From positions 1 to 12,313 of the forward strand of contig JAUVYQ010000078.1 of NCBI GenBank assembly GCA_030603035.1: a stretch of DNA of 12,313 nt, written 5' to 3'. Shown here in pieces: positions 3,531 to 11,004 of this stretch. The notes beneath the pieces are model-generated. The model did not search any database and was not told the DNA's origin. It was given only the letters and a program-made list of their open reading frames with translations. Positions within the stretch are counted from its first letter, which is position 1; the number at the start of each line of letters is the position of its first letter. This DNA comes from Phycisphaerae bacterium (lineage in GTDB: Bacteria > Planctomycetota > Phycisphaerae > Sedimentisphaerales > SG8-4). Made by a program: the position numbers and the translations under genes.

Positions 3531-4355
3531 ATGAAAGAATATTCCGAATTAGTAAATAGATACAAGAAATTTCGAAAGCTAAACCGGAAATTGCACAGTA
3601 TCTTGACTCATAAGGTATCCAAGAAAGCAATCCAAGAATGTGGGCGAAAATTGGGTATTATGAAGGGCGACACCTTTGTTTTTCGAGATATGGATGAGAC
3701 TGCCGTTCTAATGGACTACTGTATCTATGACTATTATGAGAACTCCCAGGGGGGATGCCCCTTGGCAGGCTCAAATGCCGTATCTCGGTATATAGCGGAG
3801 TCTCCGCCCGTCCCCGGTTCAGATGAGTATGTAGTGCTCAAAGCGATGTCGGAATCGTTTTATACACTCGTACAGGTTGAGCATGTCGCCGAGGGAGTTG
3901 GAGCTCAGGCCGACGACCTATTAGGCGATAGAAGTTTTCTGATTATAGATATGGGACTCGGTAAAACGGCGGTCAAAGGTCTTGTAATTGCCACAAGGCT
4001 CCTGCCTTTTGAAGATTTCACTATGACTTCCGGCGCGGCTCTTCCTGTAGACCCTGAGATAGTCGAAGAAATCTTCCCCCGCACCAAAAAGCCGACTTCG
4101 CTGCGCTCCGTTTTTGGTGCGGGGATAATTCAGCAGTTTGGCAGTGAGGACGCCGGAAACTTTAAACTTAAAACTTTAAACTTAAAACTTCTTGATATGC
4201 AACAAAGAGCTGATTTAATGACCACAATTATTCGTTTGTGTCTGGGGGAGGAAGGAAGTTTTAAGTTTAAAGCTTTAAGTTTAAAATTTCCTAACGAACC
4301 CTGCCCCTGCGGTAGTGGCAAAAAATACAAGCGTTGCTGTGGTCGAATGATTTGA
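3531..4355 (+). CDS. Hypothetical protein with C-terminal SEC-C zinc-binding motif, carrying repeat insertions
   Basis: This 274-residue protein starts at ATG 3531 without a clear Shine-Dalgarno site. Its only recognisable part is the C-terminal SEC-C motif PCPCGSGKKYKRCCG, with Cys258, Cys260, Cys269 and Cys270 as zinc ligands, of the type found at the end of SecA and many unrelated proteins. The N-terminal part is basic and probably helical (about 1-55). The middle has no motif I recognise and no signal peptide or membrane segment. Three stretches come from repeats: NSQGGCPLAG is REP-like copy B, and NFKLKTLNLKL and SFKFKALSLKF are the two arms of a 34-bp inverted repeat. All keep the frame. 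The second arm sits directly before the SEC-C motif and acts as a linker. Function is unknown. Confidence 0.75.
   Translation: MKEYSELVNRYKKFRKLNRKLHSILTHKVSKKAIQECGRKLGIMKGDTFVFRDMDETAVLMDYCIYDYYENSQGGCPLAGSNAVSRYIAESPPVPGSDEYVVLKAMSESFYTLVQVEHVAEGVGAQADDLLGDRSFLIIDMGLGKTAVKGLVIATRLLPFEDFTMTSGAALPVDPEIVEEIFPRTKKPTSLRSVFGAGIIQQFGSEDAGNFKLKTLNLKLLDMQQRADLMTTIIRLCLGEEGSFKFKALSLKFPNEPCPCGSGKKYKRCCGRMI
3743..3768 (-). repeat. REP-like element, copy B, inside the SEC-C gene
   Basis: This is a 26-bp copy in inverted orientation. Its reverse complement differs from copy C (4438-4463) at only one base (G for A in CCAAGAGGCA). It is read in frame as part of the SEC-C protein. Near-identity of two copies 670 bp apart, one coding and one not, points to recent dispersal rather than protein-level constraint. 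Confidence 0.75.
4156..4290. repeat. 34-bp inverted repeat pair built from 14-bp units, within the SEC-C gene
   Basis: The left arm (4156-4189) holds two tandem ACTTTAAACTTAAA units. The right arm (4257-4290) is its reverse complement with 2 mismatches in 34. The arms enclose 67 bp (4190-4256). Because the sequence is close to symmetric, both arms are read as similar FKxKxLxLK peptides. The transcript could fold into a long AU-rich hairpin. Confidence 0.8.
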
Positions 4356-4471: not shown

Positions 4472-6310
4472 ATGCGACTTTCTGCACGGATGCAAAATAC
4501 CGGATACCGGATGCCCGATACTCGATACTCGCGAATCGGGAATCGAAAATCGAGAATCCGCCAAGGGGCGTCCTGCGGAGAGAATCGAGAATGGGTAATC
4601 CAGCCCCCGGACCGTCGCTCTGCCCAGCTTGCCAAGTCGCTAAGGGTTTCGCCTCTTTTAGCACAGGTTTTAATCAATCGCGGCGTAACCGATTCCCGCG
4701 CCGGTGCCGTTTTCCTCAGGCCGAAACTGACGGAGCTTATCCAGCCCGGCCAAATGCCGGGGGTCAAAACAGCAGTCCGACGGTTAAAGCGGGCTATTAG
4801 AAACAAGGAAAAAATCACCGTCTATGGCGACTATGATGTGGACGGCATTACAGGCGTCTCAATTCTCTGGCAGATTCTAACATTGCTCGGTGCCGATGTT
4901 GATTACTATATCCCTCATCGAATCGATGAAGGCTATGGCCTGAACGAAGAAGCCGTCCAGGCACTGGCGAAATCCGGCAGCAAACTCTTAATCACCGTTG
5001 ACTGTGGTGTTACGGCATTTAGCTCCGCCGAACTTGCCGGGCAATTAGGTCTTGAGTTGATAATTACCGACCATCACCAGCCCGAGTCCGAGCTGCCTAA
5101 AGCCGTTGCCATTGTGCATCCTGCGCTGGAAAAATCCTACGCCAACCAGGATTCATCCGGTTCAATGGTCGCCTTTAAGCTGGCCTGGGCGATGGCAAAT
5201 GAATTCAACGCAGGTCGAAAACTTGAACCGGCATTGCGTGAATTTATGATAAATGCAACGAGCCTGGCAGCGATGGGAACCATCGCCGATATTGTGGACA
5301 TGCGAGGTGAAAACAGGGTTCTGACAAGCTATGGACTTAAAACCTTGCCGCAGTGCAAACTCTCCGGTATCCAGGCCTTGATTGCCTCGGCCGGACTGAC
5401 AGGCCAGGGACTCGATAGTTTCCACATCGGCTTTCGGCTTGCACCAATGCTCAACGCAGCAGGGCGAATGGGACACGCACGATTAGCCGTGGAGCTTTTG
5501 ACCAGCAGTAGCCAGGTCCGCTCGATGCAAATAGCCGAATATCTCAAAGAGCAAAACGGCCGGCGCCAGCAGTGTGAGCGGAAGATATTCGAGCAGGCCT
5601 GCCAGATGATAGTCCAGCTCGGCCTGAACCACCCCGAGCGGAAGACCATTGTGCTTGCAAGCGAAAACTGGCACACCGGCGTAATAGGCATTGTGGCCTC
5701 GAGAATAGTGGAAAAATTCTATCGTCCAACGATTATGATTAACAACGCCAGCCCCGCAGATGGCATCGCTCAAGGTTCCGCCCGCTCAATTCCAGGATTC
5801 TGTTTGCTCAGCGCAATCAGAGCCTGCTCACAGCATTTAATTGAATTCGGCGGCCACGAAATGGCAGCCGGCATGACTATCGAAACCCAGAAGATAGACC
5901 AATTCGCAGCCGAATTCGAGGCCTATGCGAAGCAAAACTTGAGCGAAAATGATGTGGTCGCCAAACTTCACATCGACGCAGTGGCCAAATTGGGTGAATT
6001 TCGTAAAGAAACCGTCAGCGAACTGCAAATGCTTGGCCCATTTGGCCAGGGCAATCCCAGGCCGATTTTCGCAACGAAGGGCGTTCGTCTTGCCTCCCCA
6101 CCGAGAAAGGTCGGCACAAGGGGCGAACACTTGCAACTTGCCATAACCGACAATACAACCGCAATCCGCTGCATCGGCTTCCGCTTCGGAAAATTGGAGA
6201 AGAAGCTGCTTGAACACGAGTTCTTCAATGTCGCCTATCAGCCGCAGATTAATACCTATGACGGAAACAGCAATGTCGAATTTGTCCTGGCTGATATACA
6301 GTTTGAATAG
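4472..6310 (+). CDS. recJ: Single-stranded-DNA-specific exonuclease RecJ
   Basis: This 612-residue RecJ is a cytoplasmic Mn/Mg-dependent 5'-3' single-strand DNA exonuclease of recombination and mismatch repair. The DHH phosphoesterase domain has DYDVDG (D120, D122, D124), the TVDCG motif and the DHH motif (D200-H202). The DHHA1 domain has GGHEMAAG (G460-H462), followed by a C-terminal OB-like domain (about 500-612) ending in VEFVLADIQ. The family-like N-terminus only begins around REWVIQPPD (residue 39 on). Residues 1-38 are translated heptamer and REP-like repeats (4494-4580), rich in Arg and without homology to RecJ. No start codon lies between the repeats and the conserved part, so translation must begin inside the repeat block, best at ATG 4472 with GGGAG 8 nt upstream. 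The stop lies 26 nt before the converging minus-strand stop. Confidence 0.93.
   Translation: MRLSARMQNTGYRMPDTRYSRIGNRKSRIRQGASCGENREWVIQPPDRRSAQLAKSLRVSPLLAQVLINRGVTDSRAGAVFLRPKLTELIQPGQMPGVKTAVRRLKRAIRNKEKITVYGDYDVDGITGVSILWQILTLLGADVDYYIPHRIDEGYGLNEEAVQALAKSGSKLLITVDCGVTAFSSAELAGQLGLELIITDHHQPESELPKAVAIVHPALEKSYANQDSSGSMVAFKLAWAMANEFNAGRKLEPALREFMINATSLAAMGTIADIVDMRGENRVLTSYGLKTLPQCKLSGIQALIASAGLTGQGLDSFHIGFRLAPMLNAAGRMGHARLAVELLTSSSQVRSMQIAEYLKEQNGRRQQCERKIFEQACQMIVQLGLNHPERKTIVLASENWHTGVIGIVASRIVEKFYRPTIMINNASPADGIAQGSARSIPGFCLLSAIRACSQHLIEFGGHEMAAGMTIETQKIDQFAAEFEAYAKQNLSENDVVAKLHIDAVAKLGEFRKETVSELQMLGPFGQGNPRPIFATKGVRLASPPRKVGTRGEHLQLAITDNTTAIRCIGFRFGKLEKKLLEHEFFNVAYQPQINTYDGNSNVEFVLADIQFE
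4494..4557 (+). repeat. Degenerate heptamer array in the recJ 5' end
   Basis: The tract can be read as consecutive heptamers: CGGATAC, CGGATGC, CCGATAC, TCGATAC, one 8-base step, then CGGGAAT, CGAAAAT and CGAGAAT. After REP-like copy D it resumes with CGAGAAT and GGGTAAT (4586-4599). It encodes the Arg/Ser-rich RecJ residues from about 8 to 29. Confidence 0.7.
4558..4580 (+). repeat. REP-like element, divergent copy D, inside recJ
   Basis: This starts CCGCCAAGGGGCGTCC and ends TGCGGAG. The CGCCAAGGGGCG part keeps the stem-loop of copies A and C with compensating changes (CGCC/GGCG for TGCC/GGCA), which suggests that the fold is kept. It lies in the same orientation as copy C, so two REP-like copies bracket the heptamer array. 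Confidence 0.5.
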
Positions 6311-7869: not shown

Positions 7870-8002
7870 TTCATATTTCATAGTACCGCTCTGGGATTTC
7901 TCAATAGATTCACTGCCACCAAGTATATACCCAAAACCATAATTTTTCATCGCAATAATTTTTCTTCCGGCTAAAATAAGCAAAAATTCTTTGTGGAAGC
8001 TT

Positions 8003-9535
8003 ATGACTTTTGGCGAACTCCTAAATCTGGTTTCTTCGGACAAAGTGCCCGGTATTTGCGTCGATTCCCGTCTTATCAAAGCTGGTGATATCTTCGTGGC
8101 TATTGAAGGCACTGTTTACGATGGCCACGATTTCATCGACCAGGCCCTTGCCAATGGCGCGAAATACATCGTTTGCCAACAATGTGAAGCATCGTGCGTG
8201 AGGCGTGAACAGAGGCACAAAGGCACAAAGCTAACGCAATACGCAATACGCAATACGCAATACGAGACTATAATCGTTGACGATTCTGCAGAAGCAGCAG
8301 CCCTTCTGGCACAGGCACGCAGGGGCAATCCGGCTTCGCAATTAACCAACCTCGCCGTTACCGGCACAAACGGAAAAACCACGGTCGCCTTTCTCGTTCG
8401 CTCTTGTATACAAAAGGCCGGCAAAAAGTGCGGCCTTATCAGCACAATCATTTACGATACCTGTTCAGCCACTTCCGAAGCAGCTCTAACAACGCCCGAT
8501 TGTTTGGCCATCGCCGAGAGACAGGAGCAAATAGTCAAGGCCGGCTCAAAATATATGGTCATTGAAGCCAGCAGCCACGCTCTTTCTCAAAACCGCCTGG
8601 CAGGTATTAACTTCAAAGCCGCCGCATTCACCAATCTCGCCGGCGACCATCTCGACTACCATAAAACAAAAGAAGATTACCTCGCCGCCAAAACCAAACT
8701 TTTTTCACTTCTTTCACCTGACGCTAAAGCGGTATTGAATAAACAATCGCCGGAGGCCAAACAAATCGCCGGCAAAACCAAGGCCAAAATCTTATGGTAC
8801 GCCGTTGATGAACCATCTGATTTAACTGCCTGTATCGAATCGCTGAATATAAGCGGAACGGTTTTTGTCTTGGAATATGCCGGCCAAAGACAAAAAGTAA
8901 AGACCCATTTGCTGGGCCGATATAATGTTAGCAATTCTCTCGCGGCGGCGGGACTGTGCCTCGCAGCCGGTTTCAATTTGGAAACGATAGCGGCCGGCCT
9001 TTCAGCTCTGCGAACAATACCCGGCCGATTGGAAAAACTCGACGGCGATGACGTTTCCGTCTTCATCGATTACGCCCACACCGATGACGCTTTGAAAAAT
9101 GTCCTCTTCACGCTAAAACCTTTCTGTAAGGGCAGGCTAACGGTTGTTTTCGGCTGCGGCGGTGATAGAGACAGAACTAAACGGCCCCGTATGGCTAATG
9201 TCGCTGAACAATTAGCCGATTTTATCATCGTTACCAGCGACAACCCAAGAACGGAAGAACCTATGGCTATCATTGAGGAAATCATCGCCGGCTTCGAAAA
9301 AAGCCCTTCAATACAAAGTAAGGAAATACGCAATACGCAATACGCAATACGCAATACGAAGATAATTGAGCCGGACAGAAAAAAGGCCATTGAATTGGCT
9401 ATAAAAACTGCGGCCAAAGATGATATCGTGCTTATTGCAGGCAAAGGCCACGAAACGTATCAGATAATTGGAAAGCAAAAATTTGATTTCAGCGACAAAA
9501 AAATCGCTCAGGAGTATCTGAGAAAATCAAGATGA
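8003..9535 (+). CDS. murE: UDP-N-acetylmuramoyl-L-alanyl-D-glutamate--2,6-diaminopimelate ligase
   Basis: MurE is the cytoplasmic ATP-dependent ligase that adds the third stem-peptide residue. From ATG 8003 it has 510 residues. The N-terminal substrate domain has CVDSR and AGDIFVAI. The central ATPase domain has the P-loop TGTNGKTT (G121-T127), the EASSHAL motif and the Lys-bearing YLAAKTKLF helix. The C-terminal domain has DYAHTDDAL, GCGGDRDRTKRP and GKGHE. DNPR (413-416) is the known signature for meso-diaminopimelate. A TTG at 7991 would add four residues; ATG is preferred, but neither has a clear ribosome site. Two surface loops are lengthened by translated repeats (GTKLTQYAIRNTQYE and KEIRNTQYAIRNTK). 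Both are in frame and outside the motifs, so the enzyme is probably active. The stop overlaps an ATG in the ATGA form, the natural murF start. Confidence 0.95.
   Translation: MTFGELLNLVSSDKVPGICVDSRLIKAGDIFVAIEGTVYDGHDFIDQALANGAKYIVCQQCEASCVRREQRHKGTKLTQYAIRNTQYETIIVDDSAEAAALLAQARRGNPASQLTNLAVTGTNGKTTVAFLVRSCIQKAGKKCGLISTIIYDTCSATSEAALTTPDCLAIAERQEQIVKAGSKYMVIEASSHALSQNRLAGINFKAAAFTNLAGDHLDYHKTKEDYLAAKTKLFSLLSPDAKAVLNKQSPEAKQIAGKTKAKILWYAVDEPSDLTACIESLNISGTVFVLEYAGQRQKVKTHLLGRYNVSNSLAAAGLCLAAGFNLETIAAGLSALRTIPGRLEKLDGDDVSVFIDYAHTDDALKNVLFTLKPFCKGRLTVVFGCGGDRDRTKRPRMANVAEQLADFIIVTSDNPRTEEPMAIIEEIIAGFEKSPSIQSKEIRNTQYAIRNTKIIEPDRKKAIELAIKTAAKDDIVLIAGKGHETYQIIGKQKFDFSDKKIAQEYLRKSR
8196..8264 (+). 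repeat. Compound heptamer repeat in the murE N-terminal domain
   Basis: Two near copies GCGTGAG/GCGTGAA (8196-8209) are followed by two copies of the octamer GGCACAAA (8214-8229), then four exact copies of ACGCAAT (8234-8261) and a final ACG. Three heptamers make seven codons, so the tract is read as the peptide period AIRNTQY. The insertion lies between the VCQQC strand and the VDDSAEA helix of MurE. Confidence 0.9.
9328..9358 (+). repeat. ACGCAAT heptamer tract in the murE C-terminal domain
   Basis: Four exact ACGCAAT units (9328-9355) plus ACG are read as EIRNTQYAIRNTK. They sit in the loop before the EPDRKKAIELAI helix, a place where MurE proteins vary in length. The reading frame is kept. 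Confidence 0.9.
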
Positions 9536-9636
9536 AAGAATTCTCAATTACAGCCCTGGCCCGGATAATAAAAGCTTGTCTCGCTCCACAGGGACTTGCA
9601 ATACGCAATACGCAATACGAGAATTCACCGGTGTAA
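9532..9636 (+). pseudogene. murF: Displaced natural 5' end of murF (out of frame with the rest)
   Basis: ATG 9532 overlaps the murE stop (ATGA) and opens 34 codons starting MKEFSITALARIIKACL, then passes through the ACGCAAT tract and stops at TAA 9634. These first residues match the usual MurF beginning (compare E. coli MurF, MISVTLSQLTDILNGEL, directly before its TTDTR motif). The matching VSTDSR of this gene lies 15 codons beyond the tract but in the other frame. I read this as the true N-terminus, cut off by a copy-number change in the repeat. Adding one 7-bp unit, or removing two, would fuse it in frame to the remainder. Confidence 0.75.
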
Positions 9637-10991
9637 GTACCGACTCGCGAACTACGCAAATCGGCGATTGCTTTTTTGCTGTTACCGGCGACAATTTCGA
9701 CGGCCACGATTACGTAGCTGATGCACTTGCCGGAGGTGCGGTTTGTGCTGTGGTCGGCAAAGAAATCAAAGACACCAAATTTATTGGCAAACCCATACTC
9801 AAGGTTAATGATACCGTAAGAGCCCTCGGCGATTTTGCCGCAGAATACCGTCGCAGGATGGGCTTTAAGGTAGTCGCAATAACCGGCTCAGTAGGCAAAA
9901 CAACCGCAAGGCAAATCGCTTATCACATCTTAAGTCAGCATTACCGTGTATTTCAGGCGCCGAAAAATTTCAATAACAATATAGGTCTGCCTTTGACGCT
10001 GCTCGCCGCTGACCCGGAGGACCAAATCGTCATCGCCGAGCTTGGCAGCAACCACCCCGGTGAGATAGCTTACTTGACTCGAATTGCTCAACCCAATATC
10101 GCTGTTGTTACCAATGTTTATCCAGCCCATTTGGTAGGGTTCGGTGACCTGCAAACTATAATGCAGGAAAAATTATCCATATCAGAAGGATTGCAGCCCG
10201 GCGGTATTTTCATAATCAACGCTGACTTGGTTAAATGGTTAAATGGTAATCAGTTAAATTACCAATCACCAATTACCAATCACCAAATTATAACTTTCGG
10301 CAAATCAGATGGCTCTAACTACCAGGCCCGGAACATTGATTCCACCGGCTTCGGCAGCAGTTTCACTATCGATGGCCCCCCGCCTTGCGGGAGCCGCACG
10401 CAGGTTTACTTGCCATTGCTTGGCCCGGGCAATGTCGAAAATGCGCTTGCCGCCTGGGCTATTTGCAGCCAATTTGGCCTGACTATCGATGATTTTGCAC
10501 AGGCCGTAAAGGGCTTGCCGCCCGTTTCTATGCGTGCTGAACTGCTCCAAATCGGCACACTAACGGTATTAAATGATTGTTACAATGCAAACCCGGCCTC
10601 AATGAAAAATGCACTGGATATATTGACTAATCTTGGCTCAGGCCAAAGACGCCGACTCACTTTTATCTGTGGTGATATGGCTGAACTGGGACAGCAAGCC
10701 GAACTCTTGCACGCCGAGCTGGGTGCCTCTGTTGCACGGGCCGGAGTGCAGCTCTTACTGGCAGTCGGCAAATTTGCGAAAATCACAGCCAAAGCTGCAA
10801 AAAGAACCGCCGAATACGATTTAGGTTCCCGCGAAGCGGGGTCCCTGCAAACAAAATGTTTCAAAGATATGCTTTCAGCTTGTAATAATCTGGAAAAATT
10901 CATAAAAGATTACGATATAATATTAGTCAAAGGTTCACGGGTGGCCGGACTTGAAACGGCCGTCGAAAAACTAAAAGAGGTTTTCTCGTGA
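9576..10991 (+). CDS. murF: UDP-N-acetylmuramoyl-tripeptide--D-alanyl-D-alanine ligase (main frame)
   Basis: MurF is the cytoplasmic ligase that adds D-Ala-D-Ala to complete the UDP-MurNAc pentapeptide. As drawn it has 471 residues from TTG 9576, the only standard start codon available in this frame, with no Shine-Dalgarno site. Present are VSTDSR and GDCFFAV (N-terminal domain), the P-loop TGSVGKTT (103-110), NFNNNIGLPLTLL, AELGSNHPGEIAYL, VTNVYPAHL, then NDCYNANPASM, GDMAELG and LVKGSR in the C-terminal domain. All catalytic landmarks are intact; only the first 20 or so residues are in another frame (9532-9636). Translated repeats appear at four places: the ACGCAAT tract at the N-terminus, QSPITNHQ (CCAATYA heptamers), DGPPPCGSR and GSREAGS (GC hairpins). 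The stop is 13 nt before mraY. The enzyme family is certain; expression depends on which start is used. Confidence 0.9.
   Translation: MSRSTGTCNTQYAIREFTGVSTDSRTTQIGDCFFAVTGDNFDGHDYVADALAGGAVCAVVGKEIKDTKFIGKPILKVNDTVRALGDFAAEYRRRMGFKVVAITGSVGKTTARQIAYHILSQHYRVFQAPKNFNNNIGLPLTLLAADPEDQIVIAELGSNHPGEIAYLTRIAQPNIAVVTNVYPAHLVGFGDLQTIMQEKLSISEGLQPGGIFIINADLVKWLNGNQLNYQSPITNHQIITFGKSDGSNYQARNIDSTGFGSSFTIDGPPPCGSRTQVYLPLLGPGNVENALAAWAICSQFGLTIDDFAQAVKGLPPVSMRAELLQIGTLTVLNDCYNANPASMKNALDILTNLGSGQRRRLTFICGDMAELGQQAELLHAELGASVARAGVQLLLAVGKFAKITAKAAKRTAEYDLGSREAGSLQTKCFKDMLSACNNLEKFIKDYDIILVKGSRVAGLETAVEKLKEVFS
9598..9619 (+). repeat. ACGCAAT heptamer tract at the murF frameshift point
   Basis: A partial unit (GCAAT, 9598-9602) precedes two exact ACGCAAT units (9603-9616) and ACG. 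This is the same repeat as in murE, which has four units in each tract. The frame of the natural murF start and the frame of the murF body meet here, one unit short of being joined. Confidence 0.9.
10229..10290 (+). repeat. Second heptamer family (CCAATYA) with inverted partner inside murF
   Basis: Two GGTTAAAT octamers (10229-10244) are followed by CCAATCA, CCAATTA and CCAATCA (10262-10282) and a degraded unit. The left part (GGTAAT) is a partial inverse of the right part (ATTACC), so a weak hairpin can form. It encodes NGNQLNYQSPITNHQI between INADLVKWL and ITFG, in frame. Confidence 0.7.
10379..10391 (+). repeat. GC hairpin element in murF
   Basis: CCCGC-CTT-GCGGG is a perfect 5-bp stem within the segment encoding DGPPPCGSR. 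It looks like a single-hairpin relative of the REP-like elements. It is in frame and lies in a variable loop between the SFTID and VYLPLLG strands. Confidence 0.45.
10828..10840 (-). repeat. GC hairpin element in murF, second copy
   Basis: CCCGC-GAA-GCGGG is a perfect 5-bp stem, followed by GTCCCTGCA. This order resembles the reverse complement of REP-like copy A (TCCCGAAAGGGATGCC). It is read in frame as GSREAGS, near the MurF C-terminus between EYD and KCFKDML. Confidence 0.5.
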
Positions 10992-11004
10992 AGCGAGATA
11001 TGAG

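Follow-up and report, generated by a model that had tools for sequence, protein, structure and literature searches.

A murF reading frame broken at a heptanucleotide tract in a Phycisphaerae bacterium, and heptamer tracts in core genes of a sister genome

The murE-murF locus and its frame break

The window considered here is a stretch of 12,313 nucleotides from a Phycisphaerae bacterium of the order Sedimentisphaerales (contig JAUVYQ010000078.1 of assembly GCA_030603035.1), in which murE, murF and mraY lie in a row and murF is divided between two reading frames at a short heptanucleotide tract (Table 1). The murF ATG at 9532 overlaps the murE stop codon (TGA 9533-9535) and opens a frame that reads MKEFSITALARIIKACLAPQGLAIRNTQYENSPV and ends at TAA 9634-9636. 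The body of the protein is read in a different frame, which opens after a TGA at 9519 and in which the TTG at 9576 is the sole ATG, GTG or TTG ahead of the conserved TDSR block. A Pfam scan placed the N-terminal, middle and C-terminal Mur ligase domains within this second open reading frame (ORF), as expected for MurF, the UDP-MurNAc-tripeptide--D-Ala-D-Ala ligase; the same scan found no Mur ligase domain in the short N-terminal piece. In the window the first strand and helix of the N-terminal domain are out of frame with the rest of it; in two close relatives (G001 and G003, introduced below) the domain is complete in one frame. No frame break was seen by eye in the ORF list for the other genes of the window. 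The break is real and the initial annotation described it correctly: the N-terminus and the body are in different frames, as it stated, and the two frames overlap across the ACGCAAT tract in which it had them meet.

Table 1. Features of the murE-murF region, in window coordinates
Feature	Position	Strand	Remarks
murE, open, with two ACGCAAT arrays	8003..9535	+	Pfam/ORF list; listed ORF begins at TTG 7991
murE ACGCAAT array 1, 4.4 copies, in frame	8234..8264	+	Same in G001; match at collinear place in G003; not present in G002
murE ACGCAAT array 2, 4.9 copies, in frame	9325..9358	+	Present in G001 and G002; absent in G003
Out-of-frame MurF N-terminus	9532..9636	+	34 residues; sister species read it in frame with the body
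ORF of the MurF body, starting at its sole in-frame TTG	9576..10991	+	Three Mur ligase Pfam domains
Heptanucleotide tract GCAATAC / ACGCAAT, 3.1 copies, crossing point of the frames	9598..9619	+	Four units in G001 and G003
Second murF heptamer array (AATTACCAATCACC), in frame	10257..10286	+	21 bp longer in G001

Tandem Repeats Finder assigns the murF tract a period of 7 and a 100% match between copies. ACGCAAT occurs 11 times in the window, where 2.45 occurrences are expected and none of 200 shuffles reaches 11. The heptamer is free of stop codons in all six frames, and each frame of one strand encodes the same seven residues in rotated order, which is why both sides of the murF break resemble one peptide. 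A matching heptad peptide had also been noticed in murE, and ACGCAAT arrays are indeed found twice in that gene, whose start is presumably ATG 8003. The murF tract resembles the coding simple-sequence repeats (SSRs) of the neuO type (see below) in being a tandem coding tract with a unit that is not a multiple of three, which allows full reading at only some copy numbers; its copy number also varies among close relatives, three units against four, at the level of species rather than strains.

Elsewhere in the window, tracts of other heptamer units lie at 4157-4190, 4256-4285 and 4497-4558, in a SEC-C gene and the start of the recJ ORF. A scan with Rfam at the gathering threshold and a tRNA scan found nothing in the window, and a search for a mobile or phage origin, by megablast only, gave no match for the window among plasmids or for 7991-11000 among phages. 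One promoter-like match, at 9541-9569, is about what chance would give (0.9 expected).

The tract in related genomes

Three genomes of the same genus could be aligned with the locus: G001 (metagenome-assembled genome Phycisphaerae bacterium CSMAG_1316; L064, JAUWBI010000098.1), which is the nearest to the window with 30% of sampled 31-letter words in common, G003 (CSMAG_1493; L065, DAOVNI010000015.1) and G002 (CSMAG_1255; L074, JAUVYZ010000201.1). At the DNA level the murF tract has three units in the window, four in G001 and four with one C-to-T change in G003; G002 has another heptamer array, CACGAGC/CACGAGT, at the same position. All three relatives are in frame straight across the site. 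The prediction, made from the window alone, that one extra ACGCAAT would give a continuous GLAIRNTQYAIREFTGV was borne out, since this is the peptide encoded by the four-unit tracts of G001 and G003. The second murF array differs in length by three whole units between G001 and the other three genomes and stays in frame. The first murF array of the window is the only one out of frame among the murE and murF arrays compared. These array slots fill and empty among relatives.

The possibility had been raised that close relatives lack the MKEFSITAL segment and begin MurF at the TTG. G001 and G003 keep MKEFSITAL in frame, and the TTG that corresponds to 9576 lies outside the body frame in both, so a TTG start in the sister genomes was rejected.

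Two further differences were seen at this locus. G003 lacks the second murE array and has about 1.5 kb of additional DNA between murE and murF (L065 2061-3551). In murF, two small G+C-rich, palindrome-like inserts lie in frame (window 10374-10396 and 10824-10847); they are found in G003 and absent from G001, and the first is absent from G002 too.

One explanation of the broken frame would be a sequencing or assembly miscount, with one of four units lost from the consensus. The two nearest relatives do have four, and murF is expected to be an essential gene, which here appears broken among window genes that otherwise look intact by eye. However, a tract of 22-29 bp is below ordinary short-read lengths and assembly word lengths, both of the longer ACGCAAT arrays in murE came out in frame, and no further indel-like break is seen by eye in the window. 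A miscount is an unlikely explanation, though one to be kept in view.

In a wider survey, a search over 61 related genomes gave a match in 59. The MurF N-terminus was read at 30 of the returned loci (L001 and L005-L033); some other genomes matched partially or in two pieces. MurF has its own in-frame N-terminus at 28 of the 30 loci, and it is broken at the slot in none of them. At L023 (genome G026) murF is open into murE without a separate start, giving a single open frame of 966 residues, and at L030 (G059) it is open with a long repetitive extension at the slot and no recognisable N-terminus. When the 120 best hits of two database searches were pooled, 153 of the resulting 155 MurF proteins had the N-terminal segment (145 by pattern and 8 more by eye), and it is missing in P0055 and P0108. 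P0108, a MurF of 444 residues, begins just before a heptad insert and may be a second broken case.

The two frames might instead be joined during expression, by programmed ribosomal frameshifting or by transcript slippage on the tract, which is open in all frames and offers the identical heptad in every frame of a strand. The relatives require no shift, however, and a conserved frame transition, as expected of programmed frameshifting, was found at none of the 30 loci; this explanation is scarcely credible.

Heptamer tracts across the sister genome

Heptamer tracts proved to be common in G001. The sample came to 997,525 bases of the 3.5 Mb genome in 60 stretches, of which five lie on contigs chosen for their ACGCAAT arrays. 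It contains 112 tracts of period 7, against 21 of the next period, 8. Three other genomes of the same order, G014, G020 and G040, have 5, 4 and 5 period-7 tracts in about 0.4 Mb each, so that the density in G001 is some ten times theirs. When the count is confined to perfect tracts of at least 2.5 copies, 33 are found in 315 kb of G001 and none in a triplet-shuffled copy, against 2, 5 and 14 in 400 kb of G014, G020 and G040, a contrast of 3-fold to about 21-fold. The commonest unit in G001 is ACGCAAT, with 9 of the 112 tracts, among 52 commonest units in all. Several of the common units have the form AATNNNC by eye, and single units recur at unrelated sites. Threefold ACGCAAT is found in 13 of the 61 related genomes, all of one family, and in none of the reversed controls.

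Two tests were applied to the reading frames around these tracts. A codon-usage frame test was too weak to be informative: it called 95 of 108 G001 tracts weak, 8 frame kept, 4 frame changed and 1 strand changed, and 638 random points gave 447 weak, 186 frame kept and 5 frame changed. A test of ORF extent was used in its place. With 15 of the 112 tracts set aside as near stretch ends, 25 of the remaining 97 lie within one long ORF, 67 do not, and 5 fall between ORFs in different frames. Those five, read singly, are all at junctions of adjacent genes. Random points fell into the two-long-ORF class in 15 of 938 cases (5 of 97 for tracts). They fell within a long ORF in 620 of 938 cases, against 25 of 97 for tracts, so that the tracts are depleted in genes. 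The ORF-extent test is blind to breaks near the end of a gene (the murF tract of the window is itself scored "other"), and cannot show that G001 is free of broken genes. In G020 two tracts fell into the two-ORF class, one of which looks like a gene junction while the other adjoins a masked run.

The tract-bearing ORFs of G001 include genes for core functions. Eighteen such ORFs were listed and 10 were scanned against Pfam; the 10 were identified as MurD-like, GpsA, RsmB, MnmE, a tRNA pseudouridine synthase, fumarase, QueG, a TPR protein, an M16 peptidase domain and a sigma-54 activator. The orthologues that could be aligned, for GpsA from 7 of 9 genomes (G003 and G006 gave fragment matches only) and for RsmB from 8 of 9 (G002 gave a weak match only), behave like the murF slot, with different heptad peptides, or none, at one loop. 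The MurD-like ORF (L082 15821-17308) carries two heptamer arrays with different units.

Origin of the break and known heptamer systems

The broken murF is probably the result of the loss of one unit by slippage in the sampled lineage. The tract would be a heptanucleotide SSR that MurF tolerates in its N-terminal domain, in the loop from the first helix to the TDSR strand. The inherited state was likely four units with the frame kept, as in the two nearest relatives, and the loss of one unit, most likely by slipped-strand mispairing, would place the N-terminus and the body in different frames because 7 is not a multiple of 3. The change would be recent and probably harmful to the enzyme, and the assembly may have captured the three-unit state as a short-lived or minority allele, or this state may belong to part of a mixed population.

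Codon comparisons bear on the age of the break. Within the first 22 murF codons the window differs from G003 at five, four of them synonymous and one non-synonymous (a rough neutral chance of 0.016-0.023 for at least four of five synonymous), and from G001 at three, two of them synonymous. The few and mostly synonymous changes suggest that the N-terminus was under selection for much of the divergence and that the break is young; by this measure it looks recent. The body differs from G003 at 75 of 455 codons (40 synonymous and 35 non-synonymous changes) and, to judge from these counts, is still under constraint. Pseudogene decay of murF was rejected on these counts and on the open frame of the body.

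Some function might nonetheless be preserved by a restart at TTG 9576, if the body can function when its first strand and helix are missing. The TTG is in the frame of an open and constrained body, and Thermotoga MurF has a short N-terminus. Against this, the TTG is off the body frame in G001 and G003, and no Shine-Dalgarno-like stretch is seen by eye before it, though ATG 9532 also lacks a strong one. In an alignment of 46 MurF proteins, chosen as full-length, L9 is invariant and M1, K2, F4 and I6 are nearly so. AlphaFold was run on the G001 MurF and on the TTG-start form, each with the same 45 relatives, picked as full-length. The G001 model has a mean pLDDT of 81.7, with 86 for residues 1-10 and 78 for residues 11-20; residues 1-20 are ordered, the slot at 21-29 falls below 50, and residues 31-90 are at 75-90. 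By VIA-align it matches MurF structures from its first or second residue. The TTG-start form reaches 74.5 overall, and residues 1-45, 53-65 and 68-75 are below 50 with little secondary structure, leaving most of residues 1-75 without a confident fold. The models favour damage to the N-terminal domain of the short form, and a tolerated restart is quite improbable.

Several points weigh against a recent and harmful loss of one unit. From the assembly sequence, a fixed change cannot be told apart from a miscount or from a mixture in the population. The N-terminal codon test is a small sample of five codons, and against G002 12 of the 14 changed codons among the first 22 are non-synonymous. This divergence from G002 is in line with exchange of the whole block; so is the protein P0005, which is 91% identical to the MurF body of the window and has the upstream stretch of G003 with a different N-terminus and a different heptamer array. 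Protein databases favour open frames, and the protein count is weaker than the DNA count. AlphaFold confidence measures neither stability nor activity. The MurF of Thermotoga maritima (3zl8) has only about 10 residues ahead of the TDSR block by sequence alignment, a case in which a MurF apparently can have a short N-terminus; its structural alignment nonetheless begins at model residue 2, and it may keep the first strand. Finally, 4 of the 13 non-weak G001 tracts change frame in the codon-usage test, which at first sight runs counter to this reading. All four (L168, L179, L080 and L095 293-318) lie at a gene boundary or ahead of a gene start, with the genes judged by eye.

The nearest known mechanism is that of neuO in the Escherichia coli K1 prophage CUS-3, where AAGACTC units encode one RLKTQDS heptad per three units and full translation occurs only at multiples of three (PMC3046976). 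By analogy it is a mechanistic precedent for murF: in both, a heptanucleotide repeat lies in coding sequence, three units make one seven-residue heptad, the whole protein is read at a single residue class of copy number, and the gain or loss of one unit shifts the frame (PMC3046976). The neuO product, however, modifies the capsule, and its tract of 2-93 units lies two bases after the start codon, with switching reported (PMC3046976). The murF product is instead a wall-precursor ligase, expected to be essential, and the tract has three to four units and lies within a domain.

The initial annotation had called the tract a natural slippage switch. It was right that this is the site of frame loss, and the two nearest relatives do have one unit more; a switch at murF has against it the 30 unbroken relative loci and the expected essentiality of the gene. 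For a selected on/off switch, unit number would vary in the population and set the share of cells that make full MurF. Tracts are common in the sister genome and variable within the genus, as a switch would allow. The G001 genome, however, shows one full-length MurF match among four matches. The arithmetic is alike, with neuO read through solely at multiples of three units, and the range is not: the murF tract has three to four units, and 2-93 are reported for neuO (PMC3046976). A selected switch is very unlikely.

Still less credence can be given to a broader proposal, that in this planctomycete lineage stop-free heptanucleotide tracts are repeatedly born, exchanged and lost in fixed loop slots of MurD, MurE, MurF, GpsA, RsmB and MnmE, making essential wall genes prone to slippage, and that bet-hedging would result, with a fraction of cells always switched to low synthesis of peptidoglycan precursors.

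The locus presents a heptamer tract inside a peptidoglycan ligase, in company with about 110 such tracts per Mb in the part of the sister genome that was read. Should the three-unit state prove real and mixed in the population, it would measure directly how often, in nature, slippage breaks a gene expected to be essential; should it be fixed, it would suggest that a MurF can do without its first strand and helix. The slot pattern offers a natural experiment on where in their loops proteins take up inserts, and raises the question of how one heptamer reaches many unrelated sites.

Phase-variable genes with coding SSRs are typically dispensable or surface-related, and it is in dispensable surface genes that coding repeats whose unit is not a multiple of three are best known. 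Rickettsia palindromic elements are repeats tolerated, as here, as in-frame inserts in housekeeping proteins, and differ in being longer palindromes rather than tandem heptamers. No published description of such heptamer tracts in Planctomycetota was found in the open-access literature; heptamer SSRs are reported to be over-represented and little studied (PMC4692102), and a general satellite survey covers units of 10-200 nt (PMC6749651). The TAACTGA direct repeats of marine Beggiatoaceae are similar in forming many tandem heptamer sets in one genome, some of them within ORFs, but they have one unit and are described as lying mostly in intergenic DNA ahead of start codons, the intragenic ones being mostly at the ends of proteins (PMC4679880). 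The units of the G001 tracts, by comparison, are of many kinds, and long ORFs contain 25 of the 97 scorable tracts. The GGGNATC repeats of Xanthomonas and Nostoc, in which four units are preferred, are genome-wide heptameric SSRs that are under-represented in coding regions, as are the tracts in G001; they are G-rich and quadruplex-forming with one consensus (PMC4692102), whereas the common G001 units are not G-rich and vary widely. What sets the present tracts apart from the known heptamer systems is their location inside core enzymes and the variety of their units, and this lineage habit of in-frame heptamer tracts in core genes is more interesting than the murF break itself.

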